A DNA stretch of 41,642 nt from Oscillospiraceae bacterium (lineage in GTDB: Bacteria; Bacillota; Clostridia; Oscillospirales; Ruminococcaceae), in contig JAJQHD010000043.1 of NCBI GenBank assembly GCA_021199855.1, forward strand, positions 1-41,642, in the 5' to 3' direction. The stretch's first letter is position 1, and every line of letters starts with the position of its first letter. The notes beneath the pieces are model-generated. The model was not told where the DNA came from. It worked only from the letters and a program-made list of their open reading frames with translations, and did no database searches. Shown piece by piece: positions 14,827 through 41,642 of this stretch. The translations under genes were made by a program, and so were the position numbers.

Positions 14827-14854
14827 GTTTATCTTTCCTTTCTTATGCTAACAA

Positions 14855-16342: not shown

Positions 16343-16356
16343 AATTATTGCTCCTT

Positions 16357-17593: not shown

Positions 17594-17649
17594 AAATACA
17601 CCCTTTCATCGATTTTTAACTCATAGCTGTTTCTCCTTTTCTAATTAAT

Positions 17650-17676
17650 ATTATATCTCCTGAATATTTTTGTCAA
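17650..17676 (-). promoter_or_regulatory. Promoter of the sigma/anti-sigma/lipoprotein/exporter operon
   Basis: On the minus strand TTGACA (17671-17676) and TATAAT (17650-17655) are 15 bases apart, shorter than ideal. The -35 overlaps the stop codon of exporter 3, so no terminator separates the two units. A two-codon mini-ORF (ATG AGT TAA) lies in the leader. Confidence 0.6.
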
Positions 17677-17943
17677 CCCTTTTCCTCATTTGCCGCCTTG
17701 ACATAAAACTCCGACTGCTTGTCGAACATTTCAGTGTAAAGCCCACCCTGGGCATAAAGCTCCTTATGTGTTCCATAGCCGACTATGTGTCCGTCCTGGA
17801 AGACTGCTACCTTGTCGGCGAGCTGAACAGCGGACAGGCGATGAGTTATCAGGACAGCACACTTGTCCTGAATCATCGAGTTGAACTGTGAATAGATTTC
17901 ATACTCAATATTCGGGTCTAATGCCGCTGTGGGTTCGTCAAGA
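17673..17943 (-). repeat. 3'-end segment shared with exporter 2
   Basis: This is the partner of 12994-13280. It codes the region from YEIYSQFNSMIQDKCAVLITH to the conserved tail KELYAQGGLYTEMFDKQSEF. Confidence 0.7.
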
Positions 17944-19496: not shown

Positions 19497-19497
19497 A

Positions 19498-27204: not shown

Positions 27205-27246
27205 GATGTCCTCGATCGTCGGCTCGTCGCCTTTGAGGTAGCTATA

Positions 27247-27885
27247 CTAAAGATAGATTTTGCCGTTATATTCGCCATAGACCCAGTCCTCGCCACCATC
27301 ATATGAGCCTACCTCCGCTATTTCGGTATACTCGCCGGAGGAAAGGGAGTAGCTGCAGAAATATATCGTCCTCTGGTTGGTACTTGTGCCGTAGGCATCA
27401 TAAACGCTTTCTTCGGAACAGAAATAGATAGTGTCGCCGGCAAGGACTATTCTTTCATAGACGTTTACAGTTCTGTTCGAGACTGTTTTGAGCCTCACGC
27501 GTGAAGTCCCGTCGGTCTCTGCACTGTAAATCGAGAAGTAATTTTCATAGCCGTCATCGCCCATTGAAACGCCAGTCACGAAATAGTAGAGTTTGCCCTC
27601 ATATAAAAACGGGTGGTTGTACATTCCGAAGGACGGGCAGGTGTCAGAATCGGTATGGGTGCAGTTCGGATAAGGACAGACAATAACCGACACCATGCTC
27701 TCAAAATCCACGAAGTGAAGCCTTGACAAGGAATCGACAAACAGCTCCCCGCCTTCGCCGACATCCGTATACTCGCTTATAACCCGTGAAGTAGATTCGG
27801 CTTTCTTTGTGTCACTGTCTCCGCAAGAAGTGAACACAGATAGACAAAGTGTAATTGCAATAATTACTGATAACAGTTTTTTCAT
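27247..27885 (-). CDS. A-type lipoprotein, N-terminal part ending at an in-frame amber codon
   Basis: These 212 residues start at ATG 27885, which overlaps the previous stop as ATGA and follows AAGGAG. The lipoprotein signal is MKKLLSVIIAITLCLSVFTSC, with Cys21 acylated. The A-type hallmark CPYPNCTHTDSDTC spaces C70, C75, H77, D79 and C83. Propeller-like strands follow up to GEYNGKIYL and then TAG. The intact paralogue at 31069 continues IYISYSY where this gene reads IYL-stop-YSY. A single C-to-A change from a TCG serine codon would create the stop, and the homologous frame resumes at once. It is therefore a recent nonsense allele, a recoded codon or a sequencing error. Confidence 0.75.
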   Translation of the reverse strand: MKKLLSVIIAITLCLSVFTSCGDSDTKKAESTSRVISEYTDVGEGGELFVDSLSRLHFVDFESMVSVIVCPYPNCTHTDSDTCPSFGMYNHPFLYEGKLYYFVTGVSMGDDGYENYFSIYSAETDGTSRVRLKTVSNRTVNVYERIVLAGDTIYFCSEESVYDAYGTSTNQRTIYFCSYSLSSGEYTEIAEVGSYDGGEDWVYGEYNGKIYL

Positions 27886-29444
27886 GGGTTTGTCTCCTTC
27901 CATTCAGCATACTGCCTGTTCGCTTCATCCAAAATCGTTTCAAGTCCTGCATCATCAAGTCTCTTCTCCAAGTCTGAAAGAAAGTCGGAAAATGTCTCAT
28001 AGGAATCTGAGACTATCATATCGTTTATATCAACAATCATTATCGAGCGGAGTTCCTTGACTTCGTTTTTTACTGCTGAATCGTCAAAAGCAAATTCGAG
28101 AGATGAGTTTGCGGGAACGGCGGACATCAATTCAGAAATAGCGTCAGCTTCAAGAATAAAATGCTCACCATAAGTCATTTCTTCGTAAGCCGGATGGCAA
28201 ATAAGCCAATTTGCAAATCGCATTGTACTTACGGATTCATAGACTGTAACAATCCCATTCTCCATAGTGTAATCATCCTCCGTCCCGAATGACAGAAGAT
28301 TGTTCAGGTATTCATCTGTCTGAGATGTGGCAAGAAGGTCAAAAGCCATGTCTTTATGCTTTGAGTAGGCGCACACGCCGGTAGCAGTCTGAGATTTCCT
28401 GTAGCCTATATCATCAAGCTTGCATCTGATAACTTCATATGTTGACATACCAAACGATGCAAGGCTATCCATTGGTTCCCCGTGGGTTTCAATTATGTTT
28501 GCAAATACACCGGACTTGTAACTGGCATTACCTTGTGCAATCGAGGTATAAGCAAGACCGTCCTGATAGAACGAGAAACAGCTTTGCAGAAATGAGATGT
28601 ACTCCTGATTTTCAAGAGCGCTTATAATGCTGTCTGTAGCTTCGTCATAGTAGCCGACGGAAGCAAAATCATAGGGATCAGACGGGAAATAAGCCCAAGG
28701 AGTTACCAAGCCGGTCAAAAGCCCGATGCAATTCTCCGCATTAACTATTTCTTCCACTAAGTCCTTTTGCTCAAATATAGACTTTTCCGTGTCAAAGCCA
28801 TATTTTTCGACAAGTTCTTTATTATACTCGATGTAGGTATACACAGATAAGCAGCTCAGATTATTGTCAATTCCATACACTGAGCCGTCAAACGTCAATG
28901 ACTTCCAATAGTTCTCCGGCATGAGGTCGTAAAGCTTCTGACCTGCTTCTGTTCGAGACAGGTACACGTCAAGATTTTCAAATAATCCGGCTTCAACAAA
29001 GCTTGTATACGGAGAGATTCCCCAAGAGTCGTCTGAGAGCATACCTCCCGCATAAATTATATCGACAGGTTCATCATTTTCAATCTTACTGATGATAGTG
29101 TCAATATACCGTTCATCGCTTTCCGAAGTCTGAAGTGACTGCGGCAAAAAACATACGACGTAGTCCTTGCCCAAGCTTATGAGATATTCGTTGACTTCTT
29201 CAACAGGAACAATCCCGGTGCCGAAAAGCACCTGCCAGACCAGTACAGTTTTATCCGGATACAACTCCTGTACTTCATCATAGGAGACATAATTACTGCC
29301 GCCAGCCATCCAGAATGTCGTGAATGTTTTTGAAGAAGAGTCTTCATCAGTAGCTTCGCTTTCGGAATCGCCATGCGTTCCGCATGAAGTAAGAATAGAA
29401 AATATAATTGCAAATGAGATGATGCTTATAAACCTTTTATTCAT
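27882..29444 (-). CDS. B-type solute-binding-like lipoprotein
   Basis: This lipoprotein has 520 residues from ATG 29444 (overlapping the previous TGA as ATGA). The signal MNKRFISIISFAIIFSILTSC has Cys21 as acylation site. Family hallmarks are VQELYPDKTVLVWQ, EVNEYLISLGKDYVVCF, ENYWKSLTFDGSVYGID, YGFDTEKSIFEQKDL and the C-terminal NRQYAEWKE. The overall layout suggests the extracellular solute-binding fold of ABC uptake systems, but the operon encodes an exporter and no importer. Its last codons (TGG AAG GAG) supply the ribosome site of the next gene. The ligand is unknown. Confidence 0.86.
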   Translation of the reverse strand: MNKRFISIISFAIIFSILTSCGTHGDSESEATDEDSSSKTFTTFWMAGGSNYVSYDEVQELYPDKTVLVWQVLFGTGIVPVEEVNEYLISLGKDYVVCFLPQSLQTSESDERYIDTIISKIENDEPVDIIYAGGMLSDDSWGISPYTSFVEAGLFENLDVYLSRTEAGQKLYDLMPENYWKSLTFDGSVYGIDNNLSCLSVYTYIEYNKELVEKYGFDTEKSIFEQKDLVEEIVNAENCIGLLTGLVTPWAYFPSDPYDFASVGYYDEATDSIISALENQEYISFLQSCFSFYQDGLAYTSIAQGNASYKSGVFANIIETHGEPMDSLASFGMSTYEVIRCKLDDIGYRKSQTATGVCAYSKHKDMAFDLLATSQTDEYLNNLLSFGTEDDYTMENGIVTVYESVSTMRFANWLICHPAYEEMTYGEHFILEADAISELMSAVPANSSLEFAFDDSAVKNEVKELRSIMIVDINDMIVSDSYETFSDFLSDLEKRLDDAGLETILDEANRQYAEWKETNP

Positions 29445-31072
29445 TTTCTCTCCTTCCATTCGGCATACTGCCTGTTTGCTTCGGTGATTATGTCGTTTAT
29501 ACCGGCTTCTTCAAGAAGCACGCGAAAATCGGAAAGATACTCGTCAAAGTCGGTGTAATCCGTGAGGCGGTTGTATGTCATCTCGCCCATCACGCCGAGA
29601 ACATCCACGCACTGCTGGAACACCTCGCTGTCGTCAAACACGAAATCGAAATCTTCGTCAATACAAGCATTTTCAAGAGCTGTCTTGTATACTTCGGCAA
29701 TGTCAGGCGTCTGCAAAGTGTTCGGAACGCTCAGCAAAAGATTTGAGAACTGATCACAAGCGTAATAGAACAGGTTATGATTTATTCGTCCGTCGCTGTA
29801 CATCTCAGATTCGTAATCGGCGTAGCACATGCGATTGTTGAGCTCTGCATCAGTAAGCATAGTTGCAATGAAATCGAAGGCCATATCCTGATTCTCGCTT
29901 CTGCTGCTCACTCCCAAGGCATAGCTATTTCTAGTGAGAACAGGTTGATAGTCGTCATATACCGCATACACCTCTTTATATATGGCGTTGCCATCATCGT
30001 CCTCGTAGCCTGTCCAATAATTGAAGACTTCGCCGATTTCCATAGGATAATCCACCGTACATTCAAGAGCAAAGTATGATTCGGTGTATGATGCTGTCGA
30101 TAATCCTTCATTGTAGAGGGTAAATGCCGTTTGCAAAGTAGAGATATAGTCTTCGTCGTCAAGCCAGCTTATTGTGGTTTTGTTTTCTGCGTCCCAATAT
30201 ACTCCTGAAGTCAGCTCGTTTTTGTCAGCATTGCAATCTACCATCAGTGTCGAAAAGAATGAATAAATGGTCTTGTCCACGCTTTCGCTTTGGATAGTCT
30301 CAAGCAAGTCAAGTTGATCAGTGAGTGGCTTTGAAAAATCGTAGCCGTATTCATCAGCTAAAGCTGCATCTACAAGATAAGCATGTGTTGGCTTTATGGA
30401 GCCATTGCAATTGATTCCGTAAATAGCGCCATTGTAGTTGTAAGCTCTCCAGAGGTTTTCTGGCATCATCGAATAGAGAGTCTGACCGACCTCGGTCGAT
30501 TCAAGATAATCATCCAAAGGCACCAGCATATCGTCGCGAATACTGTAGAAATAGTTGGTCGTGCTGATGATGTCAATCTGTTCCCCACTTTCAACTTTCG
30601 ATTTCAGATCGCTGTACCAGTTGCTGAGTCCGACATTCGAACAATAATCGCTGTAAATTGGATTATTCTCGGTGAAGTCGAAGCATATGACATAATCCTT
30701 GCCGAGTTCATTAAGATACTCGTTGACTGCCTTTGTTATGTAGTAATATCCGTTTTTGCCGACACATGCAACAACGAGAACCGTCTTGTCGGGATATTCC
30801 GTCTGAACCTCCTCATATGTCTGAATATCAGGCGATTTTGAGTATTGCATGGTGCTCCCGTCTTCAAATTCTTCGTAGTACTGTATGTAACCGTCATCGT
30901 CCATCCACGAGGTGATGTAATACTCGTGAGTAGTGGCTTCGGTGGTGGTTGTGACAGCAGAAGTCGTAGTAGCCGCCGTTGTGGTTTCGCTTTCCTGCAA
31001 GGGTTCGCTTACGCAACTGCAAAGGGAAAATGCAAGCGATGCGGCTAAGATAAGGGATAGTAATTTTTTCAT
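29441..31072 (-). CDS. B-type solute-binding-like lipoprotein
   Basis: The product has 543 residues with the signal MKKLLSLILAASLAFSLCSC and a long Thr-rich linker (about 28-48). The B-type domain shows VQTEYPDKTVLVVA, NEYLNELGKDYVICF, ENLWRAYNYNGAIYGIN and ADEYGYDFSKPLTDQLDLL, then SENQDMAFDFIATMLTDAELNNRMCY and the tail EANRQYAEWKERK. It is closest to the B half of the fusion protein, sharing EYYITSW and the PLDDYLESTEVGQ segment, which suggests recent duplication. The ATG overlaps the preceding stop as ATGA. Function is unknown; it is probably a surface ligand-binding subunit. Confidence 0.87.
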   Translation of the reverse strand: MKKLLSLILAASLAFSLCSCVSEPLQESETTTAATTTSAVTTTTEATTHEYYITSWMDDDGYIQYYEEFEDGSTMQYSKSPDIQTYEEVQTEYPDKTVLVVACVGKNGYYYITKAVNEYLNELGKDYVICFDFTENNPIYSDYCSNVGLSNWYSDLKSKVESGEQIDIISTTNYFYSIRDDMLVPLDDYLESTEVGQTLYSMMPENLWRAYNYNGAIYGINCNGSIKPTHAYLVDAALADEYGYDFSKPLTDQLDLLETIQSESVDKTIYSFFSTLMVDCNADKNELTSGVYWDAENKTTISWLDDEDYISTLQTAFTLYNEGLSTASYTESYFALECTVDYPMEIGEVFNYWTGYEDDDGNAIYKEVYAVYDDYQPVLTRNSYALGVSSRSENQDMAFDFIATMLTDAELNNRMCYADYESEMYSDGRINHNLFYYACDQFSNLLLSVPNTLQTPDIAEVYKTALENACIDEDFDFVFDDSEVFQQCVDVLGVMGEMTYNRLTDYTDFDEYLSDFRVLLEEAGINDIITEANRQYAEWKERK

Positions 31073-32139
31073 GATGTGATCTCCTCTCTGATAAGCTCAG
31101 AAGCTTCGAGCCTGATGAATTCGTTGTTCAATGAGTCCTTCAGGATGTATGCCCCGTCGAGATAATACTCGACATTGTATCTGGTTTCAAGCGGAAGCTT
31201 CGACTCGTAGTGTGTGCCTGTTTCAAGATCAATTATCAATCCATAGTATAGGTGGAAAGCGTAGTCGTTGCACACCTGAAGTGCGACTTTGTTTCCGATG
31301 TCATACTCTTCCCCGTTCGGAGTTCTGATTATAGCTTCAGTAAGGTCGTCATTATAAACTATAAGATAGCCGTCCAAGGCTTTCCAGACTGCCTCATCAT
31401 TTTCGGAAAGCTCACCTGTGGACAAATCGAACTTGTAATATTCCAAGACAGATTCAGGGAATATGTGGTCGATATACAGCGCATCGAGTTCTTCATCGGT
31501 CAGTTCGTGGTCATAGTAAGAATAGCTTATATAAACGATGCCGTTTGCTTCACCCTTGATACTCGCACCGGCGTTGTAGCCTTCGCCTATTTTTACTACC
31601 TCGTTGAACTTGCCGGTTTCAAAGTCATATGAAATCAAAGAAACACTCACATAATCTTCAGTAGTGCCGTAATCGTTGAAGGCCGTCTGCTTTGCGGTCA
31701 TATAGATAGTGTTTTCGACAACGAGTGCCGGATTATAGCCTGCAATTTCCCAGTCGGTAAAGGTTTCAAGGGCAATGCGATTGGTGCCATCAATGTCGCA
31801 ACGATAGGCAGTAATTGTCTCGGAATAAGTGCCATTTGTGTATTTGAAGTAGTACATCTTACCATCAAATACAGTTGGATAGCATGACAGCCCATAGGAC
31901 GAGCAGGTGCTACTATCAGCATGAGTGCAGTTTGGATAAGGGCAGACGATAGTGGATTGCATTGTCACGAAATCGCAGTAGTTCAGCCTCGTATAAGAAT
32001 CATAGTAGAACTCGCCGTTGTTGTAGATGTTTGTTTCAAGGCTTACCATATGGGAAACGGGATATTCGTCGGCTGATGAACTTTTGCAACCGCAAAGCAT
32101 AATTACAAGCGCCAGGACCAATACAAACAATCTCTTCAT
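31069..32139 (-). CDS. A-type lipoprotein with Cys/His motif and propeller-like domain
   Basis: This 356-residue lipoprotein has the signal MKRLFVLVLALVIMLCGC. The A-type motif is C66, C71, H73, D75 and C79 (CPYPNCTHADSSTC). Strand-rich repeats follow, such as GKMYYFKYTNG, NTIYMTAKQ and NGIVYISYSYYD, resembling a DUF5050 or beta-propeller fold. The Cys/His set looks able to bind a metal or form disulphides, but this is untested. ATG 32139 overlaps the previous stop. The stop overlaps the start of the following B-type gene, with GAGGAGATC as ribosome site. It is the intact reference for the amber-interrupted paralogue. Confidence 0.85.
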   Translation of the reverse strand: MKRLFVLVLALVIMLCGCKSSSADEYPVSHMVSLETNIYNNGEFYYDSYTRLNYCDFVTMQSTIVCPYPNCTHADSSTCSSYGLSCYPTVFDGKMYYFKYTNGTYSETITAYRCDIDGTNRIALETFTDWEIAGYNPALVVENTIYMTAKQTAFNDYGTTEDYVSVSLISYDFETGKFNEVVKIGEGYNAGASIKGEANGIVYISYSYYDHELTDEELDALYIDHIFPESVLEYYKFDLSTGELSENDEAVWKALDGYLIVYNDDLTEAIIRTPNGEEYDIGNKVALQVCNDYAFHLYYGLIIDLETGTHYESKLPLETRYNVEYYLDGAYILKDSLNNEFIRLEASELIREEITS

Positions 32140-33257
32140 GCTATCTCTTCCCCTATCAGTTCACTTTCCTCAATCTTTACATACCCATCATCCTGCCTGA
32201 TGATATAGCTTCCGTCGAGGTACCAGACGACCCAGCCGTCATAGTCGCTGACGGTGTATCTCTTGCCGGTTTTAAGATTGATGCACTCGCGGTCAGTGCC
32301 GCCGGAGAAAAGCATGTCGTTCACTACACTATAGGATGACATTCCAAGCGGGGTGAAATTTTCGTAAATGCTCTCGTTGCCCTTGGAGTCGAAAACGGTC
32401 ACTGTTGTGCCGCTGATGGCGATGAAATAGTTGCTGTCAACAACGAAGTTGTCATAGCTGTCGTCGGAGCCGGGCATATCCCAATCGACAAAGCTTTCCG
32501 AGGCGATGTCATAGCAACAGTAGTGGTTCTCATAAAGAGCCGTGAACTCGTCCCAGTGCTCCGTCATATAGTCGAAGTCTTCCCATTTCTCGTCCCAAGG
32601 CTCATCAAGGGCGTTCTCAGTCAGGTAGATTTTGCCGTTATATTCGCCGTAGATTGTCGCTCCGCCGTCATAGCCGGAGTCGAGTTCTCCCAAGCAATAA
32701 AAGCTCTCGGTGGAATAGTCAAACCGATAGAGCCAGAAAGTCTCGTTGCCGGTGGCGATGAAGTTGACTGCGTCAAACTCCGACTCCGTGCCGACAAAAT
32801 AGAGGCTGGTCCCGACCAGAAGTGCCTTTTCCGAATGGTAAAGCTCGATATTCTCGGCAGTCGTGACTTTTCTGCGGTTGGAGCCGTCGATAGAAGCCGA
32901 GTAGGCGACAAGATTATTCTGCGGCAAGCCGTCGCTGTTCGTGACGGTCTCCTGCACGAAATAGTAAAGCCCGCCGTTTACCGCTACGGGATGATTTATG
33001 ATGCCGAAAGCTGTGCATTCTTCCGAATCATTATGAAGACAGTTAGGCTTCGAGCAGATATATGTGTAAGCCATGGTTGTGAAGTCGATATACATAAGCT
33101 TCTCACCGTCCTCGTAAAACTCGCCGTTGTTATACAGATTCGAGAAGACATAAACCGCCGACGACTCCTCATATCCGTCAAGAGTCTCCGTTGTAACTCT
33201 GCTCCCGCAGGAAGTAAGCATCAGCACCGCCAATAGTACCGCTACAATTTTAATCAT
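32136..33257 (-). CDS. A-type lipoprotein with Cys/His motif and propeller-like domain
   Basis: This 373-residue lipoprotein has the signal MIKIVAVLLAVLMLTSC with Cys17 acylated. The motif C68, C73, H75, D77 and C81 reads CSKPNCLHNDSEEC. Strand repeats include GGLYYFVQE, TSLYFVGTE and NGKIYLTEN, and the end LDGSYIIRQDDGYVKIEESELIGEE matches the other A-type proteins. The start codon overlaps the upstream gene by 8 bases, the longest overlap in the operon, and uses GGAGGG inside its last codons. It may be a surface sensor or accessory subunit of the exporter; that is inference from position. Confidence 0.85.
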   Translation of the reverse strand: MIKIVAVLLAVLMLTSCGSRVTTETLDGYEESSAVYVFSNLYNNGEFYEDGEKLMYIDFTTMAYTYICSKPNCLHNDSEECTAFGIINHPVAVNGGLYYFVQETVTNSDGLPQNNLVAYSASIDGSNRRKVTTAENIELYHSEKALLVGTSLYFVGTESEFDAVNFIATGNETFWLYRFDYSTESFYCLGELDSGYDGGATIYGEYNGKIYLTENALDEPWDEKWEDFDYMTEHWDEFTALYENHYCCYDIASESFVDWDMPGSDDSYDNFVVDSNYFIAISGTTVTVFDSKGNESIYENFTPLGMSSYSVVNDMLFSGGTDRECINLKTGKRYTVSDYDGWVVWYLDGSYIIRQDDGYVKIEESELIGEEIA

Positions 33258-34845
33258 AGTTGTTTACCCTCCATTCGGCATACTGCCGATTGATTTCTTC
33301 CAGAAGCTCATCAATCCACGCTTCTTTAAGCTCGGATTGCAAGGCGGCGAGGTCTGCCTCGACTGACGAATAATACAAATATGAGTGATTCTGCACTGTT
33401 TCCTGAACAGAACTGTAGAGTTCTTCATAGCCTCTGACGTCAAAAGCGAAGCCTACTGCTTCACTTGCATCTGCCGGTTGAGCGTTTTCCAGAATCTCCG
33501 CAAACAGTTCGTTCATATCTTCTGGCATATCGCCGTAGGAATCGGTTATCAGCGGATTGGCGAAGCGGTAATTTATCAGATACGGCGCATCTTCACTGTT
33601 GCCGAACGAGAGAAGATTGTTGAGGGTGCTGTCGGTCTGACTTTGGAGGATGAAGTCAAAGGCTTCAGTTCTATGCTCCGAGCTGGAATAGATGCTAACT
33701 CCTCCTGCGGAGGATGAGGTGTAGGTAAAACTTGTATTGTCGGCAACGGTGGTGAAATCGGAATAGGTGTCGTCGCCGGTTTCAAACTGGGTCTGTTCGC
33801 CTGTGAAGGATTTTCCCAAGTTGAGGGAATAGGTGCTTGTCGATATGCCATAGCTTGCAAGATACATTCCGGTGTAGTTTTCGGCATCGTCAAAGATAAG
33901 TCCACTGTCTTTGAGTTTATACCAGAGCTCAAGGCTTTTAGAGAAGCTGTCGCCGTCTGCGAGATTGACAATTCCGTCATCATAGGAAGTGCCTATTATT
34001 CCGGCAAAAACAAACTCTTTGTAAAGGCTCGAATAATTGACCTTGACTCCACGGCAGTTTTCTTCGGTCATAATGGTCTCTATGAGATCAAGCTGTTCAA
34101 ACAGCGATTTATCGTAGTCCCAGCCGTACTTGTCGGCAAGCTCAGTGTTGATGAGATAGTAGTTTGTGTCGTTTCTTCTCACTCCGAGACTGAAGCCACC
34201 GAAGCCGTAGATAGTGCCGTTCACCTTGAAGGATTCCCAATATTCTTCAGGAAGCGAGTTGTAATACTCTGTCGCCTCCTCAGAACTTTCAAAGTAGCTT
34301 TCAAGTGGCTCATAGATTCCGTTCAAAGCATTGTAATAATAAGCTGTGATAATCGGCTCGTCGAAACTTGTAACCATAACCGTCAGAATGTCCGCTTGCC
34401 CGCCGGATTCTAGATAATCAGTAAAGCAGTCGAGCATGGAGTCATAGTCTCCGTTATCGTACTTGACTGTTGCCGCAGTCATGTTTAAGGGATAGTAGCA
34501 GAGAACATACTCCTTGCCGATGGAGTCAAGATACTCGTTGATTTCATCTATAGAAATCTCAATTTCGAGACTGCTGTCAGCCGTCAGAGCAAATCCGACC
34601 CACACGAGGACTGTTTTATCGGGGTATTCGGCTTGGATTTCTTCGGCGGTCTTGTAGGAATAGAGGGTGAATGCAGAATAGATAGCATCGTTGTCAATCT
34701 CACTGGTTTCGCCGGTGGTTTGCTCGGTTGTAGAAGCTATTGTAGCCACCGTTGTGGTTTCACCTTCCTGCAAGGTTTCGCTTCCGCAACTGCAAAGAGA
34801 AAACGCAAGCGATGCGGCTATGATAAGAGACAGTAATTTTTTCAT
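33250..34845 (-). CDS. B-type solute-binding-like lipoprotein
   Basis: The product has 531 residues from ATG 34845. The signal MKKLLSLIIAASLAFSLCSC is nearly identical to that of the gene at 29441, including at DNA level. A Thr-rich linker precedes the B domain: IQAEYPDKTVLVWVGF, then INEYLDSIGKDYVLCYYP, EEYWESFKVNGTIYGFGG and the tail EINRQYAEWR. It is closest to the TGA-interrupted paralogue upstream. It shows the conserved VLVW in which that paralogue has lost the Trp codon. Start and stop both overlap neighbouring genes. Confidence 0.87.
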   Translation of the reverse strand: MKKLLSLIIAASLAFSLCSCGSETLQEGETTTVATIASTTEQTTGETSEIDNDAIYSAFTLYSYKTAEEIQAEYPDKTVLVWVGFALTADSSLEIEISIDEINEYLDSIGKEYVLCYYPLNMTAATVKYDNGDYDSMLDCFTDYLESGGQADILTVMVTSFDEPIITAYYYNALNGIYEPLESYFESSEEATEYYNSLPEEYWESFKVNGTIYGFGGFSLGVRRNDTNYYLINTELADKYGWDYDKSLFEQLDLIETIMTEENCRGVKVNYSSLYKEFVFAGIIGTSYDDGIVNLADGDSFSKSLELWYKLKDSGLIFDDAENYTGMYLASYGISTSTYSLNLGKSFTGEQTQFETGDDTYSDFTTVADNTSFTYTSSSAGGVSIYSSSEHRTEAFDFILQSQTDSTLNNLLSFGNSEDAPYLINYRFANPLITDSYGDMPEDMNELFAEILENAQPADASEAVGFAFDVRGYEELYSSVQETVQNHSYLYYSSVEADLAALQSELKEAWIDELLEEINRQYAEWRVNNYD

Positions 34846-35882
34846 GAATAACTCTCCCTCCATTCCGCATACTGCCGGTTGACTTCTTCCAGAAGTTCAT
34901 CAATCCCCGCTTCTTCAAGCTCGGATTTCAGGGCGGCAAGGTCTGCTTCGACTGATGAATAGCCTATATATGAGTGATTACTGGCAGTTCTTTCCACAGC
35001 CGCATATAGCTCTTCATAGCCTCTGACATCAAATGCAAAGCCTATTGCTTCGCTTTCGTCGGCGGTAGTTGCTGTTTCAAGAATTTCTTTGCATAGCTCG
35101 TTCATATCCTCTGGCATATCTCCCGAGCTGTCGGAGTATGGCAGGCTTATAAGCGGGTTGTAGAACCTGAACATGTTGAGTACCGGTTGGATGTCTGATA
35201 CCACGCCATGGACGATATTATAGTCCTCGCCCTCTATGCCATAGGTCAGAAGATTATTTAGATATGCATCAGTCTGGCTGAGAAGTATAAAATCAAACGC
35301 TTGAGACTTGTATTCAGAACCTGCATAAATCCCGATTCCGCCCAGAGCCTGAGTATAGTGGTAATCGGACATCGGCACAACTGTGTAATCAGCGGTGTTG
35401 TCTTTTGAATCGACTATCTTCTGAATATGAGACCTTATTTCAAACCTCAGCGGATTAATATAAATGAAGCAATCGTCAAGCCCAACGATGTCGTAATTTT
35501 CGAGAACTTGGGCGTTTTTCAACTCATACATCATTTCAAGATAAGCTTCCAATTTGTCGCTGTCTGCAAGGCTTACTGCAACGCCGTTTTCACTGTCGAA
35601 AGAAATGCCGTCCATGTAAATGAATCGATCGATAAGATATGCCGAAGAATAGCCGGCTGAAACTCCCGCACAACCCTCGGACTGCATTACCTCTTCTATG
35701 ATATCAATCCGTTCGGTTATAGTCTTGTCAAAATCCCAACCATATTTTTCGGCAAGCTCGGTGTTGATATAGTAGTAGCAATCTGCTCTCGCGCCGACTT
35801 CATATCCGCCAAAGTTATAGAGATTGCCGTTCACCCTGAATGAATCCCAATATTCTTCGGGAAGGGAATTATAATACGACAT
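34842..35882 (-). CDS. B-type lipoprotein, C-terminal part after an in-frame TGA
   Basis: These 346 residues are the downstream part of the gene that starts at 36509. Between TGA 36189-36191 and ATG 35882 the frame is open for 102 codons and matches the family (NDYLVSLGKDYVICFSP, IYEPLDSYFESSEEAMSYYNSLPEEYW), so the true domain begins well before this ATG. The rest shows VNGNLYNFGGYEVGAR, AEKYGWDFDKTITERIDII and the tail EVNRQYAEWRE. ATG 35882 is internal, without a good ribosome site, and would lack a signal peptide. The last codons (TGG AGG GAG) form the ribosome site of the next gene. Confidence 0.7.
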   Translation of the reverse strand: MSYYNSLPEEYWDSFRVNGNLYNFGGYEVGARADCYYYINTELAEKYGWDFDKTITERIDIIEEVMQSEGCAGVSAGYSSAYLIDRFIYMDGISFDSENGVAVSLADSDKLEAYLEMMYELKNAQVLENYDIVGLDDCFIYINPLRFEIRSHIQKIVDSKDNTADYTVVPMSDYHYTQALGGIGIYAGSEYKSQAFDFILLSQTDAYLNNLLTYGIEGEDYNIVHGVVSDIQPVLNMFRFYNPLISLPYSDSSGDMPEDMNELCKEILETATTADESEAIGFAFDVRGYEELYAAVERTASNHSYIGYSSVEADLAALKSELEEAGIDELLEEVNRQYAEWRESYS

Positions 35883-36188
35883 TGCTTCCTCGGAACTCTC
35901 AAAATAGCTGTCAAGCGGTTCATAAATCCCATCGTAGATATTGCTGTAGTAAGCGTGGATTAGTCCGTTTCCAACAGTTAGTGAACAGCGGGTAAGTATA
36001 TCAACCTGTTCACTCGACTCAAGCTGTTCTATATACGCATCCCTTGCATCGTCATAGTAGAGCGTGGCATTAATAAAATCAACCGGAGAAAAGCAGATGA
36101 CGTAATCCTTGCCGAGAGAAACAAGATAGTCGTTGATGGTGTCAATGGGTATGAGCCTCGTATTTTCTGCGGGATAATCATAGCCCAG

Positions 36189-36509
36189 TCAGACTAGAAC
36201 CGTCTTGTCGGGATACTTCGCCTGGATTTCGTCTGCCGATTCGTAGTAGTTAGGATAGTATTTATGTCTGTAGAGGGTTTTGCCGTTTCCGCTCACATAG
36301 GTCTCTTCTACTATCAATAAACCGTTTTCCTCTGTCCACGAAGTGACATAATATTCTTCTTCGCTTTCGGGAACGGTTGTGACGGAAGTAGTCGTAGCCG
36401 CCGTTGTGGTCTCGCTCTCCTGTGGGAGTTCTTCGGACCGGTTTCCACAGGATGTGAAAATTGTCAGGCAGAGTATGATTGCTAATATCAGTGAGAATAA
36501 TCCTTTCAT
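36189..36509 (-). CDS. B-type lipoprotein, N-terminal part ending at an in-frame TGA
   Basis: These 106 residues open the nine-gene operon. The signal MKGLFSLILAIILCLTIFTSC (Cys21 acylated) is followed by a Thr-rich linker (about 34-48) and the family start IQAKYPDKTVLV, then TGA. Two paralogues have Trp at this exact position (VLVW), so one G-to-A change turns TGG into TGA. Reading resumes in the same frame immediately after, and the intact product would be 555 residues. It is a nonsense allele, a readthrough codon or a sequencing error. No selenocysteine-type hairpin was identified. I could not place a good promoter; a weak TATTAT lies about 25 bases upstream of the start. Confidence 0.72.
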   Translation of the reverse strand: MKGLFSLILAIILCLTIFTSCGNRSEELPQESETTTAATTTSVTTVPESEEEYYVTSWTEENGLLIVEETYVSGNGKTLYRHKYYPNYYESADEIQAKYPDKTVLV

Positions 36510-36551
36510 GGTGAGCCGCCTTTCGTGGGTATTCTTATAATAATAGACACT

Positions 36552-36622
36552 TACAGCAGGAATTTGGGTTCACATGTGGGCATAAAAAATTCCCTGCCGT
36601 ATTTCTACAGCAGGGATTTTTT
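36552..36622. terminator. Bidirectional terminator with a duplicated arm (possible attenuator)
   Basis: The stem TCCCTGC/GCAGGGA (36591-36597 and 36610-36616) is flanked by A and T runs and should stop transcripts from the RyR module. A second near-copy of the right arm (36552-36565, 13 of 14 bases identical to 36606-36619) could pair with the same left arm. Two mutually exclusive hairpins are thus possible ahead of the lipoprotein operon. The remaining bases of 36510-36716 hold no gene that I can support. Confidence 0.7.
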
Positions 36623-36716
36623 ATCTATTCAGTCGCACTTTTTTTGCTTGTGCCTTGCAACTACTCTTGCATGAAGCAAAAAACTATGGAGCGAAAGCCA
36701 TCGTTGTCATCATCAC

Positions 36717-36998
36717 TTAAGATTTCACAACTTTATACCCAATCTTGACAATAAGCTTGATTGTTTCGATAGCAGTGCTGCGATCATAATCCTTTTCACT
36801 TTCCGGAAGCTCAGAGTATGGGACAAGAAGCGGAGTCGTTTTCTTGACTGAATCTTTCACATCTCCATATGTCCAGCCTTCGGAAATTCGTCCCGAAGCC
36901 CAGACTTCATGCACGTTTTCAGCTATCCTTTCTGTCAAAGATAACAGTTCCTCTGAAAGAACGATGTCACTTGTATCGATAGGTTTTGGATTATACAT
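36717..36998 (-). CDS. Stand-alone RyR (ryanodine-receptor repeat) domain protein
   Basis: The whole 93-residue product is one RyR domain: YNPKPIDTSDIVLSEELLSL, then IAENVHEVWASGRISEGWTYG (about 25-45), LVPYSELPESEKDYDR (58-73) and a final helix. RyR repeats occur in animal ryanodine receptors and in bacterial proteins that often join nucleotide- or NAD-binding domains. Here it is the third gene of a channel module. ATG 36998 lies 5 bases after the preceding stop, with AAGGAG overlapping it, so translation is coupled. A soluble ligand-sensing subunit is plausible. The module ends with a terminator, which separates it from the lipoprotein operon. Confidence 0.9.
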   Translation of the reverse strand: MYNPKPIDTSDIVLSEELLSLTERIAENVHEVWASGRISEGWTYGDVKDSVKKTTPLLVPYSELPESEKDYDRSTAIETIKLIVKIGYKVVKS

Positions 36999-37003
36999 CG
37001 TCG

Positions 37004-39343
37004 TTACTCCTTGCCAATGTTCTCTAAGATCTTGTCTTCTGCCGGATAATCATAATATTTAAAGCGCTTCATTACAGGTCTGTTCGGATCAATTCTGACG
37101 CTTTCGTCATATATATCATATACTAACGCATCAAGCAAATCAAGATCCCTTGCATCACTTTCCTTGATGATGTTACCATTATCATTTTTGAATGTCGCTC
37201 TCAGACCGCTATGGTCGCATTCAACAAGGCAGGGATGTAGCTTCAGTTCCATTTGCTTATGATCTCCAGACGACTCATAGTAAGCCGCAAAATCGTCAGT
37301 ATGCCTGTAGCCTTTGACTCTGGTAAAAGCACACCATCTTCTGTGTTCGAGCCAGGCTAACTCATCGAGCAATTCTGCATTCTCACCCGTTCTGTCAGAA
37401 GTAGCCAACTGCTGATATGACTTTCTTGCTTTTTCCATTTTGGATCTGTAATCCGAGTCCTCGATTGAGAAGTCAATCATACCCGCAGAGAACATCTTAT
37501 ACCTTCTGTGCATTGTCCGCGCTAGATTCGCCCAATACTCATATTCATCTGTGGGCTTTCTCGACCTCTTCCTGTTGTCAGCAATAAAATCGTCGTTCTG
37601 CATAGACATATAGGCGCTGTGTATCTCATTTGCAAGAATACTATAGCCGCTCATAGTGACATTTTCAACACTGTAAACCTTGTCCATGCTTCCAACGGCA
37701 CGCATATAGATATCCACATTTTTGCAGTCAGACTTAAACTGCTTCTCTTCATTCAATAAGCTTGAAAGTGCTGTGTCGTATACGACGTACGTAATTACGG
37801 TATCAGGTCCTGCGGAGTCCTTTCTTGCCTGCCTCTTTTGTGCATATTCGGGTGACAGATGATACTGCCCTACGTAGTTCTTGATTGTATTGGCAAGAGA
37901 GATATTGTCCTCATCAGAGCCCAAACAAACAAAGAAGTAATCAGTGTCGACAACACTATTGGCAGAATTACCATGTGGATTCAGGCACTCAATAAACTTC
38001 GACGATTTTACATCACACTGAAGATACCTGACATCACAATATACATCAGCCATATCGCCCTTTTTATTGATACGAAGAATCGGATCGTTCCTGATGGTCG
38101 TGTGCCTGATTTCCGGGTTTACATAGTCAATCTTATTCCAGAAAGCCTCTTCAGATTCCTCCGAAAGAATGTTGATCTTTAGATCACAATTGAGAATCTG
38201 CCCGAACCAATAGGTGGACAGGAACATTTCTGTGCCGATACTGCCAGTTCCAAGTATTGTTACGGTCAGATCTACCTTTCCGGAATCTCTCGGCTTCCCT
38301 ATCAACGGTTCATATAGCGGAATATCGCACAGCATGTTTGATACCAGATTTCTGTAGCATCTTACAGGAATAATAACCGGAAGATCGCCCGCGCTATTAT
38401 CATCCTGAGAGGCTATTTCCTGCTTGTCAAGTCCCCATGCATCAGTCAGCTTGTTTCGGATACTCCTCTCGACCTGGACATAAGCATCGCTATTAACAAA
38501 CAGGTAAATCTCAGCTCCCTTTATGCAGACATTTTCGGGGTCTGTGATCGCTGTCAATGACTTAAGGCTATCATCCTCACTGCTATCAATCAGGAAGAAC
38601 TTCTTCCTGGCACTTTTATTTAATCTTATGTGTGATAAGTCGTCCTTCAGACAGATTGCACCTATAAGCTTTGCTTCAGCAATCAATTCCGAATTCTTCT
38701 CATCATCATTGCTATATACGTCCGCAAAGATGATAACAGGTGATCTGAACGGAGCATACTTATTGTTCATATAGCTCTTTGCCAGTGCCAACGAGCCTTC
38801 GTTGAGCTCATTAAAATAGAACTTGTCCCTCCAGACAGCTATTCTCGCGCAGAATAACTTGAATCTTGGGAAAAAGCTTGCAATTATCTCCAGGACAACT
38901 GCTCCTCCGGCAACCGGTGCCAGAAGATTCAGAACAGAAGCATACCCACCGAGCAGAGATTGCATAGCTTCACCTGCTCCATAAAGTTCCCTGACCATCG
39001 CTTTGCTACTGATTATGTATGCAGTATAATCCTCATCCATACTGAATGTCTGCAATGCATGAACAAGGCTATTGAGAATTTCTTCAAACCAGGTAAGGCT
39101 TGCAAGCGATGAATCAGCTGCAACACAAGACAACTCGGGGTAATGAAGTCCGAAGTATCCAACAGCATACCTGAGACACCAGATGGAGCCGAGCATACAT
39201 GCAAGAACAGCCATAGGACTGATTATTACTCTTCTTCTGCCGATAATCCGCCTCTGAATGATTCTGAAAACGACGTAGACAATCACTACTGACAGTAGCA
39301 AAACTGATAAACATAACAGAACTGTTACCAATGTCTTAACCAC
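37004..39343 (-). CDS. Membrane Rossmann (TrkA-N-like) protein with RyR-like C-terminal segment
   Basis: The product has 779 residues. Helices lie at about 5-27, 43-62 and 138-158. The cytoplasmic part appears to hold two nucleotide-binding folds. The second has a clear dinucleotide motif, GTGSIG (365-370, in LTVTILGTGSIGTEMF), and the first begins near residue 173. The C-terminus carries ELAWLEHRRWCAFTRVKGY (about 661-679) and LHPCLVECD, the arrangement of RyR-associated bacterial proteins. It lies between the channel and the RyR gene and probably regulates the channel by sensing a nucleotide. GTG 39343 is supported by AAAGGAGG 6 bases upstream. I do not know a named close homologue. Confidence 0.82.
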   Translation of the reverse strand: MVKTLVTVLLCLSVLLLSVVIVYVVFRIIQRRIIGRRRVIISPMAVLACMLGSIWCLRYAVGYFGLHYPELSCVAADSSLASLTWFEEILNSLVHALQTFSMDEDYTAYIISSKAMVRELYGAGEAMQSLLGGYASVLNLLAPVAGGAVVLEIIASFFPRFKLFCARIAVWRDKFYFNELNEGSLALAKSYMNNKYAPFRSPVIIFADVYSNDDEKNSELIAEAKLIGAICLKDDLSHIRLNKSARKKFFLIDSSEDDSLKSLTAITDPENVCIKGAEIYLFVNSDAYVQVERSIRNKLTDAWGLDKQEIASQDDNSAGDLPVIIPVRCYRNLVSNMLCDIPLYEPLIGKPRDSGKVDLTVTILGTGSIGTEMFLSTYWFGQILNCDLKINILSEESEEAFWNKIDYVNPEIRHTTIRNDPILRINKKGDMADVYCDVRYLQCDVKSSKFIECLNPHGNSANSVVDTDYFFVCLGSDEDNISLANTIKNYVGQYHLSPEYAQKRQARKDSAGPDTVITYVVYDTALSSLLNEEKQFKSDCKNVDIYMRAVGSMDKVYSVENVTMSGYSILANEIHSAYMSMQNDDFIADNRKRSRKPTDEYEYWANLARTMHRRYKMFSAGMIDFSIEDSDYRSKMEKARKSYQQLATSDRTGENAELLDELAWLEHRRWCAFTRVKGYRHTDDFAAYYESSGDHKQMELKLHPCLVECDHSGLRATFKNDNGNIIKESDARDLDLLDALVYDIYDESVRIDPNRPVMKRFKYYDYPAEDKILENIGKE

Positions 39344-39413
39344 AGCTGTTCCTCCTTTTCAGTATACTGTTGCCCGCATATATCTATCGGATTTCTGGCA
39401 CGGAAATAACGTG

Positions 39414-41441
39414 TCAGTGCCTGCTATAAATAATCAGCTTGTCCTTCTCGGTGAGCTCAATTTCAATATCCTGCTGATTTCCAACAAACAGCCTCGTTTC
39501 ACCAGAAGAATTGACATATCCAATTACCATAGCCTTGTTGCTGTCAGGAGAGGCTTTATAAACAGCTCTTATTAGCTGCTTGGCTGTGCAACGAGGCGGT
39601 AGCTTTCTGAGGAATGTTCTGACAGGCTTGATATACAGCTCTTTGCTCTCATAAACGTCAGCATCAGATTCATCATAAGTTAAAATGTCACAATAGTACT
39701 CATAAAGAGAAACCTTTTCGCTTATCTGGGTGACCATTTTGCTGATATATCTGTTACTGATAACTACATTATTGGCACTGAAATCATGAACAACGTCGTA
39801 GTTCTTTGGATTTAGTATTTCAACAATGACATCAATACTGTTAGTGTCAAAGTCCGGGTTCTTCTGAAGCCTTTCTGAGATTATGTCCTGAACATAGATA
39901 AGGTATGTAAGAGCATTGGAGTCGATATCTTCGCTTGGCGCGTTATCATCTGAAAGAATAAGTATACTTGTGTCCCCATCATGAGAATCAACATATTGGT
40001 TGATAGCATCAGTAATCCGATCATATTCGTAAACTTCAGCTTCTACTACTGAGCTTACATAAGTGTAGTTTCTGTAGTAGTTATGCTTCTCTATGCTCTT
40101 TTTATCGTCGATTATAAGAATATCAATGATCTCTTTTTCGCCGAAACGGTTCCATTCTGCTCTGAATGCATTGAAACCGTTCATAATATCCTCACTCTTG
40201 GAATTATGCCCGATAATAATAATGTTTGTCGGTGCCATCCAGTAGTCCGGATTCACCTCAACATCAACAGGCTCAAGGTCAAACGATTCCTTCTTGTCGA
40301 TGTCTGAATCCTGTTCAGCGATATAAAACGACTCAAATCCGGTCTTTGTTTCCATAGTTGTGAGAGGAATTGCATGGCAGTTGTTCTCGAGATAATGAGA
40401 AGTTTCTCCGATTTCGTCCCACTTTTCGCTATGCGGTCTTGAATAGCATTCAGCTCCCTTATTTGAGAACAGCTCACTGTAAACTGTATTTAATTCAGGC
40501 ATAATCGAGAACTGTGACAAAATCTGACCGAGAATTTTGTTGACAGGAACAGGGATAATATTGCATTTGCCAAGCTTCTCTTTATGATAGATTATCTTGT
40601 CAACGAGATCACCAGTCCATTTATCCTCAATCTCAACGACGATAGTCTGATCATTAGCCGATTTCTCAGAAGAAGTAAGCTCTGTAACCTGAACGAGCGT
40701 CTTTATAGTGTTGGAATTGCCATGCTCAAGCTGTTCACGCCTCTCAGAATAATCATACTTACATACTGAATTCTGAACATCGCTACTAAGAATGATTATG
40801 CTCCTTGCGCTAAGGATAGATATATCATCCAGAGCCTTTGAGGAGAAAGTGTCGCCCTCACGAACGATTATGGTAAGCCTGTTTTTGACCTTTTCACGGC
40901 GGATTGTGTCTGCAATTCTGTCGGAAATCTCACGTTCAACATGCTCAGCATCGCCGTTGACAAGAATGACAATAGTCTCTCTTTTGCCCTCGTAAAGCAA
41001 GTCATTGATGATTTCAGAAGCTCTTGAATTCCAGTTCAGAATTACAGTATGCTCGGAAATTTTCAGAGGACGGTTGCCTGACTTCGAATTCTCGATAAAG
41101 CTCGAAATGGTATTGGTGACATAACCGATTACTGCGCCGGTGAATGTGATCATTCCGACTATGACGATAATTATGCAGGCGATAATCAGCCCCACGCTTG
41201 CTTCACCGATGTCAGTTATGACATAGGACACGCAACCAGCATCCAAAACCATACTTATTGTGTAAAACACCGACTGCCAGAATCCGGATTCATGCAGAGA
41301 ATCAGGTGCCAGGCAGGATATTACCACTGCGGAGATTATAAACCAAAGTACATTAAGTAGCAAAATCCCGAACAAAATTGCCCGGGATGGTCTTTTTGCA
41401 ACATAAGTGTTAATATACTCTTTTATTTTCTTGACTTTCAT
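39414..41441 (-). CDS. CASTOR/POLLUX-like ion channel with two NAD-binding (RCK-like) domains
   Basis: The product has 675 residues. Helix 1 (about 20-45), a pore loop (53-78) and helix 2 (82-112) form a minimal pore. The filter region reads LDAG (66-69), matching the xDAG filter of plant CASTOR and POLLUX rather than the GYG of potassium channels. Two Rossmann domains follow: HTVILNWNSRASEIINDLL (131-149) and NIIIIGHNSKSEDIM (406-420), resembling the CASTOR gating ring. It leads the operon channel, Rossmann/RyR protein, RyR protein. Its ion is unknown, and plant homologues carry nuclear calcium or cation currents. ATG 41441 has AAAGGAAA upstream. Confidence 0.85.
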   Translation of the reverse strand: MKVKKIKEYINTYVAKRPSRAILFGILLLNVLWFIISAVVISCLAPDSLHESGFWQSVFYTISMVLDAGCVSYVITDIGEASVGLIIACIIIVIVGMITFTGAVIGYVTNTISSFIENSKSGNRPLKISEHTVILNWNSRASEIINDLLYEGKRETIVILVNGDAEHVEREISDRIADTIRREKVKNRLTIIVREGDTFSSKALDDISILSARSIIILSSDVQNSVCKYDYSERREQLEHGNSNTIKTLVQVTELTSSEKSANDQTIVVEIEDKWTGDLVDKIIYHKEKLGKCNIIPVPVNKILGQILSQFSIMPELNTVYSELFSNKGAECYSRPHSEKWDEIGETSHYLENNCHAIPLTTMETKTGFESFYIAEQDSDIDKKESFDLEPVDVEVNPDYWMAPTNIIIIGHNSKSEDIMNGFNAFRAEWNRFGEKEIIDILIIDDKKSIEKHNYYRNYTYVSSVVEAEVYEYDRITDAINQYVDSHDGDTSILILSDDNAPSEDIDSNALTYLIYVQDIISERLQKNPDFDTNSIDVIVEILNPKNYDVVHDFSANNVVISNRYISKMVTQISEKVSLYEYYCDILTYDESDADVYESKELYIKPVRTFLRKLPPRCTAKQLIRAVYKASPDSNKAMVIGYVNSSGETRLFVGNQQDIEIELTEKDKLIIYSRH

Positions 41442-41461
41442 ATGTAGTTTCCTTTCTTTTC

Positions 41462-41490
41462 AGTATAGCAAAGTATACTGCCTCACTGAA
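41462..41490 (-). promoter_or_regulatory. Candidate promoter of the channel/RyR operon
   Basis: On the minus strand TTCAGT (41485-41490) and an extended TGCTATACT (-10 at 41462-41467) are 17 bases apart. A second TATACT overlaps at 41472-41477 with no good -35. The leader from the first would be only about 14 bases. Confidence 0.45.
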
Positions 41491-41568
41491 TTATTTAGAG
41501 CGTGAGTCTAGAAATTATCTCCAATTCTGTGAATATTTTTCACGAAATTATCACCCACGTCTAAATAA
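41490..41568. promoter_or_regulatory. Nested-repeat operator-like region upstream of the channel operon
   Basis: Outer inverted arms ATTATTTAGAGCGTG (41490-41504) and CACGTCTAAATAAT (from 41556) match except for one extra base. Inside are two direct copies of GAAATTATC (41511-41519 and 41544-41552) and a palindrome GTGAA-N5-TTCAC (41529-41543). The outer arm touches the candidate -35. This looks like a cooperative regulator site or a cruciform. Confidence 0.5.
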
Positions 41569-41576
41569 TATCATGA

Positions 41577-41635
41577 TTTAACACGCATGTCAAGAACTTT
41601 TCACAGTAATTCCCGCATTGTGTGTCCGTGTTAAA
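41577..41635. repeat. Inverted pair TTTAACACG / CGTGTTAAA
   Basis: Nine-base arms at 41577-41585 and 41627-41635 are perfect reverse complements. The right arm is part of the 20-base word shared with 33-52. The left arm is followed by a partly similar sequence, so it may be a degenerate third copy. Confidence 0.45.
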
Positions 41636-41642
41636 CTGATAT
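41623..41642. repeat. 20-bp inverted repeat, right copy
   Basis: This is the exact reverse complement of 33-52, and the window ends with its last base. Possible interpretations are given with the left copy. Confidence 0.6.

Follow-up and report, generated by a model that had tools for sequence, protein, structure and literature searches.

A predicted channel module with RyR domains on an Oscillospiraceae contig, and the TIR neighbours of its relatives

Here we report on a contig of 41,642 nucleotides from an Oscillospiraceae bacterium (assembly GCA_021199855.1, contig JAJQHD010000043.1), to which we refer as the window, since the stretch analysed is the complete contig, and in particular on three adjacent open reading frames (ORFs), which we call genes A, B and C. 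Gene A encodes a predicted channel subunit of the CASTOR/DMI1 type, gene B a membrane protein that joins RCK-like domains to a divergent RyR domain, and gene C a free RyR domain; in other genomes, relatives of B and C repeatedly stand beside TIR genes. We interpret A-B-C as a predicted module in which RyR domains would sense an ADP-ribose (ADPR) signal and control a CASTOR-like channel, and we assign this whole chain a probability of roughly 0.45. The domain assignments of the three proteins, taken together, we regard as nearly certain. An earlier, sequence-only reading had proposed a nucleotide-gated channel with dedicated sensors, possibly serving signalling or defence; the observation itself is confirmed, and that view of its function is partly supported.

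The three genes are closely packed on the minus strand. Gene A (39414..41441) is an ORF of 675 residues, gene B (37004..39343) one of 779 residues with a GTG start, and gene C (36717..36998) one of 93 residues. The ORF calls thus reproduce the layout first described, including the gaps of 70 bases between A and B and 5 bases between B and C. Given this spacing and the shared direction, the three genes are likely to form one predicted operon. In codon comparisons, A differs from its 85% identical relative (L072) with a nonsynonymous divergence (dN) of 0.094 and a proportion of synonymous differences (pS) of 0.74, and C differs from its counterpart in L038 with a dN of 0.22 and a synonymous divergence (dS) of 1.9. 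By these estimates A is under strong purifying selection, and C is also strongly constrained. Because of this purifying selection and of the conservation across families, we do not consider the A-B-C observation to be a product of chance.

The product of A had been likened to the plant CASTOR/POLLUX channels on account of a two-helix pore, an LDAG filter and two Rossmann domains, and all of these parts are recovered by the structural model, the hydropathy profile and the family alignment. The membrane part, at residues 18-120 (41082..41390, minus strand), consists in the model secondary structure and the hydropathy profile of an outer helix, a pore helix, the filter and an inner helix, that is, of two transmembrane helices; the filter motif LDAGC falls at residues 66-70 (41232..41246, minus strand). 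Residues 131-675 (39417..41051, minus strand) form a tandem RCK gating-ring part according to the model, Foldseek and profile comparison. As a single sequence, A matches CASTOR at E 0.0065; a profile of 67 family members, compared with 177,635 distinct sequences of the PDB, finds at E ≤ 0.1 only DMI1 (3.1e-27) and CASTOR (5.2e-26). The AlphaFold2 model of A (pLDDT 85.8, pTM 0.81) has as its six best Foldseek matches the gating rings of LjCASTOR and MtDMI1 (E 4.8e-25 to 9.3e-21, with a TM-score on the target of 0.77-0.80 at 17-18% identity), and Slo1 (best E 2.3e-18) and GsuK rank behind them. The likeness to CASTOR/POLLUX therefore stands by PDB profile and by fold, and not by Pfam, no CASTOR/POLLUX family of which is matched by A at E ≤ 0.1.

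The residues of the filter and of the gating ring can be compared individually. LDAGC is present in 63 of the 67 aligned A proteins and the filter aspartate in 66; in CASTOR, a Ca2+-selective channel, the filter reads A-D265-S(A)-G, and no current was obtained with the D265N mutant (PMC6697748). Using a numbering offset of 309, which was worked out from the printed PDB chain, we find that D442 of the CASTOR gating-ring Ca2+ site corresponds to D273 of A (an aspartate in 61/67 A proteins), that D444 corresponds to W275, and that E493 corresponds to E331 (a glutamate in 26/67, the window's A among them). By predicted fold, profile and filter, then, A belongs with CASTOR/DMI1 and is a predicted channel, and its filter suggests that it would conduct Ca2+ or another cation.

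Gene B had been described as a membrane protein with a GTGSIG motif and an EHRRW/HPCLV C-terminus, and this description holds in every part. Residues 2-168 (38840..39340, minus strand) contain, by model and hydropathy, three long helices and a short helical hairpin. These are followed, at residues ~174-340 and ~357-620 (37484..38824, minus strand; model and Foldseek), by a pair of RCK- or TrkA-type Rossmann domains, the second of which opens with GTGSIG, and a helical, RyR-like C-terminus at residues ~632-752 (37088..37450, minus strand; family conservation and hhalign) carries EHRRW (E666-H667-x-R669-W670), HPCLV, H703 and D735. The best Foldseek match of the B model (pLDDT 83.9) is TrkA (E 3.6e-5), with Slo1 and the DMI1 ring weaker. 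In the TrkA-N profile check suggested by the sequence-only reading, one relative of B, that of L043, exceeds the TrkA_N cut-off (26.2 versus 23.8 bits).

That the end of B is a divergent RyR domain is supported by several sequence comparisons. A profile of 29 family members finds only RyR chains in the PDB at E ≤ 0.1 (best 3.7e-12), and hhalign aligns the B family with the free RyR family at probability 95 and E 2.5e-8, which bears out the RyR-like label that the sequence-only reading gave to B. B-type proteins of other genomes exceed the cut-off of the Pfam RyR family PF02026, and that of L045, at 25.8 bits, falls slightly below the cut-off of 27.4. Mean column identity across the family is 26%; E666, H667, R669, W670 and H703 are nevertheless kept in 29/29 proteins and D735 in 28/29, and three of the four residues H667, W670, H703 and D735 are among just nine invariant columns.

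The membrane region of B also contains a motif, LQTFSMDEDY / VDGDF, that resembles a pore helix with an acidic filter. We considered B as a pore protein homologous to the membrane part of A and rejected the idea, the profile comparison (E 0.0053, probability 6.8) being too weak. As a separate observation, L049, L211, L263 and L277 encode proteins of 1359-1427 residues in which a B-like region lies behind a longer N-terminal part, near TIR genes; in L049 that N-terminal part is a protein kinase (Pfam E 1.5e-13), and the gene before the long protein in L211 and L263 is presumably PP2C-like.

Gene C, which had been called a pure RyR domain, is one by profile: it matches PF02026 at E 6.2e-35 and 119.8 bits over model positions 1-90 of 91. 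It resembles the B. thetaiotaomicron domains 3nrt and 4n05 and the animal RyR repeats. The ligand of such a domain is suggested by a 2026 preprint, in which the RyR domain of the phage protein RyDEP binds and cleaves 2'/3'cADPR, a cyclic ADP-ribose (cADPR), through the contacts H75, W78, H100 and D117, with a catalytic His and Asp, a stacking Trp and a phosphate-contacting His (PMC13232231). These contacts map onto H30, W33, T55 and D72 of C at a constant offset of 45, a mapping made without alignment to the RyDEP sequence, and the B-C profile alignment places H667, W670, H703 and D735 of B on the same four positions of C. Thus all four contact residues are kept at the end of B and three of them in C. 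All 16 free RyR proteins examined keep H30, W33 and D72; at position 55, the RyDEP H100 site, 12 of them have T, 3 have H and 1 has S. The conserved His/Trp/His/Asp set of B looks like a ligand pocket, and by analogy with RyDEP its putative ligand is ADPR. The term 'nucleotide-gated' is now better founded than when it was proposed, given the activity of the phage domain on 2'/3'cADPR and the presence of its contact residues in B and, for the most part, in C.

The same preprint provides the grounds for a different view of C. Phage RyR domains serve there as sponges or as a hydrolase against TIR-made nucleotides, that is, in counter-defence (PMC13232231), and C has both catalytic residues of RyDEP, the His and the Asp, as well as its stacking Trp. 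C might then be chiefly a signal sponge or a glycosidase, a RyDEP-like off-switch that guards against the cell's own or foreign TIR signals, with B and A acting on something else; the free RyR genes that have no B beside them (L212, L217, L218, L219, L264) would fit such a role. The H100 position, however, is not a His in 13/16 free RyR proteins, B has the same kind of domain, and in many operons C is found next to B or to a gene like it, as would be expected of a partner subunit. We consider this explanation improbable.

The proteins of the TIR family produce NAD-derived immune signals. It is of interest to ask what lies beside A, B and free RyR genes elsewhere, and for this we rely on several samples, each with its own counting rules. 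For A, we used the best 80 of 177 relatives, most of which have titles that name Clostridia or one of its families; six of the 80 (L086, L095, L118, L130, L137, L145) were dropped when no A ORF was called by our gene caller, a simple longest-ORF script. The loci as a whole are a selection and not a random set, comprising 20 of 22 other genomes and then two batches of 20 regions, which were chosen from the matches mainly by score and contig and, in most cases, with no prior knowledge of the neighbouring genes. L045 and L140 represent one and the same contig, which enters once into the TIR linkage and twice into the 77 A genes. The B-like genes of L220, L221 and L265 fall below the B threshold and are outside the 56 B loci. 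In L213 and L214 the RyR ORF was lost in gene calling, and its sequence was read directly for residue counts alone.

With these rules, a TIR gene lies within 4 kb of B in 17/56 B loci, versus 3/68 A loci without B (p = 1.2e-4). The TIR gene is on the same strand as B in 16 of the 17, and in 14 of the 56 it is on the same strand within 1.2 kb. Restricting the comparison to A loci gives 4/8 with B versus 3/68 without (p = 0.0017). The main TIR profile used for these counts was trained partly on TIRs adjacent to B; a second profile, built from the TIRs of the source genome itself, which were cut out by means of the first, gives 3/8 versus 1/68 (p = 0.003). Of the three A loci with a TIR and no B, only L126 has it on the same strand. 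For free RyR loci, a TIR gene lies within 4 kb in 9/17 and within 200 bases in 8/17. In 7 of the 17 B loci that have a TIR (L049, L262, L263, L269, L271, L272, L277) the call comes from local profiles alone, with no Pfam scan; TIR matches exceed the Pfam cut-off in L037, L043, L044, L077, L099, L103, L122, L126, L211, L215, L217, L219, L220, L221 and L222. The alignment column that we take to be the catalytic glutamate of TIR is conserved in 11/11 aligned proteins. A 636-residue neighbour in L223, considered at first as a TIR, has no Pfam support and was excluded from the counts; a 289-residue neighbour in L213 has no Pfam TIR match, and the match in L125 is under the TIR cut-off.

The arrangements themselves are varied. 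A B-RyR-TIR operon occurs in L215, and likewise in L043, where an AAA/M41 protein and a second B are added; L220 and L221 have the same order, with a B-like protein recognised solely by its RyR end. The order is RyR-B-TIR in L265, where B matches weakly, and TIR-RyR in L264, and in L217 a RyR-TIR pair closes a tubulin-like cluster. The channel gene joins in as B-A-TIR (L077, L099), A-B-TIR (L122), TIR-A (L126) and B-TIR-transporter-A-TIR (L103). Leucine-rich repeats (LRRs) are found in the TIR proteins of L037, L099, L103, L126, L220 and L221; their genes share operons with B, with A or with a free RyR gene, and their architecture is reminiscent of plant and animal TIR-LRR receptors. These TIR genes, often of the TIR-LRR type, which recur beside relatives of B and C, had escaped the sequence-only reading, and they are the best clue to the ligand.

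Two observations on other neighbours may be added. In L121 (14498-15151), the gene adjoining B encodes a 218-residue protein whose DprA/SLOG-like match (E 0.0039) falls below the threshold; according to PMC11204291, isomers of cADPR activate ThsA effectors of the SIR2-SLOG type. Small membrane proteins that recur near B and TIR genes (L033:3241-4161, L269:9065-9928, L272:6588-7622, L077:11010-11717) have a start that we take to be PrsW-protease-like. PADLOC models of ThsB and other TIRs weakly match the TIR partners, and IetA matches the AAA proteins (1.5e-43 in L043); we do not build upon these matches.

If a TIR partner exists in the source genome (2.31 Mb in 58 contigs, with one RyR match and one A match at E ≤ 1e-3), it is possible that it acts in trans. 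The genome has four TIR matches on other contigs: two on C54, one on C6 and one on C25. Both C54 TIRs (C54:1225-8623, L064), one of which has TPRs by Pfam, lie ~1-2 kb from a 1165-residue AAA protein, and this protein is 64% identical to the AAA/M41 protein that stands between the two B genes of L043. We found no overlap between the window end and the three source-genome stretches that hold TIR genes.

The TIR linkage of B and C, the kept ADPR-contact residues, and the position of B beside a CASTOR-type channel together lead us to the reading of A-B-C as a nucleotide-gated channel. As a proposed mechanism, a TIR-type enzyme would make an ADPR-type nucleotide, a cADPR isomer or a relative of one, from NAD+. 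This nucleotide would be bound by the RyR domains at the end of B and in free C, and the RCK-like domains of B would relay the binding to the membrane and to A, which, being of CASTOR/DMI1 type, would conduct Ca2+ or another cation. Given its place next to B in many operons, and the pairing of RyR repeats in animals, C may supply the other half of the sensor by joining the RyR end of B in imitation of the animal tandem repeats, or else it may buffer or cleave the signal and so set its threshold. In many relatives the presumed signal maker, a TIR and often a TIR-LRR protein, is encoded in the same operon; in the source genome it would have to be a trans-acting one. Opening of the channel would result in an influx of ions or in depolarisation, and could plausibly serve phage defence or a stress response; defence would be a natural purpose given the TIR(-LRR) partners. 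What the data show are the domain identities, the conserved residues, the gene layout and the repeated linkage of B and C to TIR and of A to B; we infer the ligand, the interaction of A with B, the ion, the direction of gating and the biological role alike.

This mechanism can be extended to a bacterial version of the animal axis that leads from cADPR through the ryanodine receptor to calcium, with a TIR(-LRR) signal, RyR readers in the B end and C, and a CASTOR-type Ca2+ channel. We put this extension forward tentatively, as something rather unlikely in its full form, and equally doubtful is the corollary that the window would be the form that packs channel and both RyR domains into one operon.

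The contexts in which A and B occur apart from TIR genes raise another explanation. A stands in an operon with a membrane family of 1400-1950 residues (c2) in 19/77 A genes and with a tubulin-like family (c5) in 8/77, and tubulin-like clusters contain or adjoin A or B in L039, L042, L081, L083, L087, L089, L090, L106, L119, L122, L271 and L275, as called by local profile or clustering, with Pfam Tubulin_2 checked for L042 only. B occurs in kinase-fusion, DUF4062 and tubulin-like contexts as well. Such neighbours would be expected if A and B were RCK subunits of an ion-homeostasis or envelope-stress channel, reading cytosolic Ca2+, NAD(H) or similar metabolites within larger membrane complexes (FtsZl1/vWA, FtsK-type), with TIR as one interchangeable input and an RyR end that binds a common adenine nucleotide. 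The kept Ca2+-site residue of CASTOR (D442, our D273) favours this account, as do the B loci that have no TIR within 4 kb, including L224-L230. Against it, the near-invariant His/Trp/His/Asp of B matches an ADPR-binding site, TIR linkage is higher for B than for A-only loci, and the TIR gene lies within 200 bases of free RyR in about half of the free-RyR loci. We consider a homeostatic channel possible, though doubtful, and the same holds for its premises that TIR is an interchangeable input and the ligand a common nucleotide.

Several side observations concern these contexts. Tubulin-like clusters often include a membrane protein of 1400-1950 residues with weak transglutaminase or zinc-ribbon matches, and L216/L217 likewise have A, B or a free RyR gene in or near such a cluster (FtsZl1, Tubulin_2). 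A ends operons with an FtsK/SpoIIIE-like ATPase in L072 (5757-12025), L102 and L143, the ATPase being supported by Pfam for L072 only; the small proteins of these operons (~90-116 residues) look WXG100-like, and the two of L072 have no Pfam match. Together, these operons suggest, at the level of sequence, a link of A to a type-VII-like secretion system. In L225-L230, which are related genomes, a separate B subfamily has no TIR beside it and possibly has a conserved chromosomal role; the genes next to it we take to be SecD/SecF-like and radical-SAM-like.

It remains to weigh whether A cooperates with B and C at all. The pairs A-B and B-C recur across the examined loci, so that the homologues do co-occur pairwise, if not as a trio, and the absence of any co-occurrence, which the sequence-only reading had named as a refutation, is not what is seen. 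A directly adjoins B in both gene orders and in divergent sequences (B-A in L077, L079, L099 and L140; A-B in L122), and a C-type gene follows B or a B-like gene in the window and in L033, L034, L043, L211, L215, L220, L221 and L260, and precedes it in L038 and L265. B is rare in the loci of A, being present in 8 of the 76 non-duplicate ones. In a draw of 391 genomes from the class, B is present in 31, RyR in 27 and A in 17, and in 50 A-holding genomes, those of 50 of the 80 loci, B is present in 36 and an RyR match (E ≤ 1e-3) in 19, of which 6 have a full-length free RyR. We discount the figure of 36/50, since the genomes were chosen for A and the class draw gives no clear association; we attribute much of it to clade. 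A and B are missing from both same-genus genomes of the order draw (0/2), and therefore the locus looks accessory. It could be that A stands beside a B-C pair by chance or arrived there recently, and that the three products do not cooperate: the trio is seen once, the 85% relative of A is without B and C, and the class draw shows no clear link in trans. With A beside B in divergent sequences elsewhere, and with the window's genes close and co-directional, we judge this highly improbable.

A number of results weigh against our preferred reading of a nucleotide-gated channel. The A-B-C trio is in no other locus among those examined. The closest relative of A, in L072, lies in the FtsK/SpoIIIE ATPase operon with two small proteins and without B or C, and the L072 genome gives no B or RyR match at E ≤ 1e-3; more generally, A also lives without B in FtsZl1/tubulin-like or FtsK/SpoIIIE operons. 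In the class draw, B is present in 3/17 A-positive genomes, the source genome included, versus 28/374 A-negative ones, which is no clear link in trans. No TIR gene is present in the window, which ends 201 bases upstream of A, and 39/56 B loci and 8/17 free-RyR loci are without a TIR within 4 kb, some of their contigs ending early. The window's B has no match to PF02026 at E ≤ 0.1, C is without the phosphate-contacting His, and A, B and C match no PADLOC model at E ≤ 1. Nor did NCBIfam give anything useful for the three proteins. Among viral contigs, a pattern scan based on the A profile gave 123 pattern matches and no confirmed relative, which is weak evidence against phage carriage.

As for novelty, the parts are known, namely CASTOR/DMI1, PF02026/RyDEP, RCK proteins and Thoeris TIRs, and the combination was not found in print. 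A search by title and the start of the abstract, with most subscription journals outside its range, found no publication that describes a bacterial RyR, TIR-RyR, bacterial CASTOR or channel-type Thoeris combination, and the whole word RyR is absent from the available part of an NAD-ADPr survey (PMC9503650). The RyR domains described here belong to host genes and stand repeatedly beside TIR and, for B, in some operons beside a CASTOR-like channel. Should these domains read TIR signals, they would constitute a new class of receptors for ADPR signals, coupled to a membrane effector; a role open to testing could then be assigned to bacterial RyR and TIR-LRR genes that are so far uncharacterised, and the disputed effect of cADPR on the ryanodine receptors of animals would have a bacterial counterpart.

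The surroundings of the module in the window may be described briefly. A promoter-like site lies 5' of A (41565..41593, minus strand; TTGACA-17-TATTAT with an extended -10, 11/12 matches), which is a consensus match alone; promoter-like sites number 27 in 36000-41642, versus 12.8 +/- 3.9 in shuffled sequences. A terminator-like hairpin (36591..36616, minus strand; 11 pairs, 6 of them G-C, with a T-rich tail) lies ~100 bases 3' of C, and such sites, at 4 versus 3.5 +/- 2.3 in shuffles, show no excess over chance in the same region. Beyond it, on the minus strand of 25243-36509, is a series of paralogous lipoprotein-like ORFs, several with a C-terminal DUF3502, of which one is apparently fragmented (34842-35882 and 36189-36509), and 10999-21318, also on the minus strand, holds two pairs of ABC-transporter ORFs (four in total, 593-630 residues).

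Finally, we compare A-B-C with known systems. FtsZl1 (Tubulin_2)-vWA clusters have relatives of A and B in or beside them, and their genes are absent from the window's operon; in the available part of the paper on these clusters, neither TrkA nor ryanodine is mentioned (PMC2875224). TrkA, BK (Slo1) and GsuK have RCK folds in common with A and B, but A is closer to CASTOR/DMI1 and B adds an RyR-like end. CASTOR, POLLUX and DMI1, the plant nuclear Ca2+ channels, share with A the two-helix pore, the acidic filter without TVGYG, the fold of the tandem RCK ring, and the Ca2+-site aspartate D442 (D273). They differ in having four membrane helices rather than two and in a ring that is only 17-18% identical; D444 is replaced by W275, E493 is kept in a minority of A proteins (26/67), and A adjoins RyR-domain genes.

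Compared with RyDEP and the other PF02026 domains, C consists of one RyR domain that has three residues of the ADPR pocket (His, Trp and Asp), and the divergent RyR end of B keeps all four. RyDEP, however, is phage-encoded, whereas C and B are host-encoded beside a channel gene; its H100 is a T in C, and B fuses the RyR domain to membrane and RCK parts. In Thoeris, an anti-phage system, a TIR protein (ThsB) is paired with the effector ThsA, and relatives of A-B-C likewise combine, within a single operon, a TIR protein and a putative receptor for ADPR signals. The receptor differs, ThsA being a SIR2-SLOG or macro protein and the one described here a membrane/RCK/RyR protein, in some cases with a CASTOR-like channel; the window, moreover, is without a TIR, and its three proteins are without a PADLOC match. 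We thus group A-B-C with the nucleotide-signal systems that have membrane effectors, as a variant of them.

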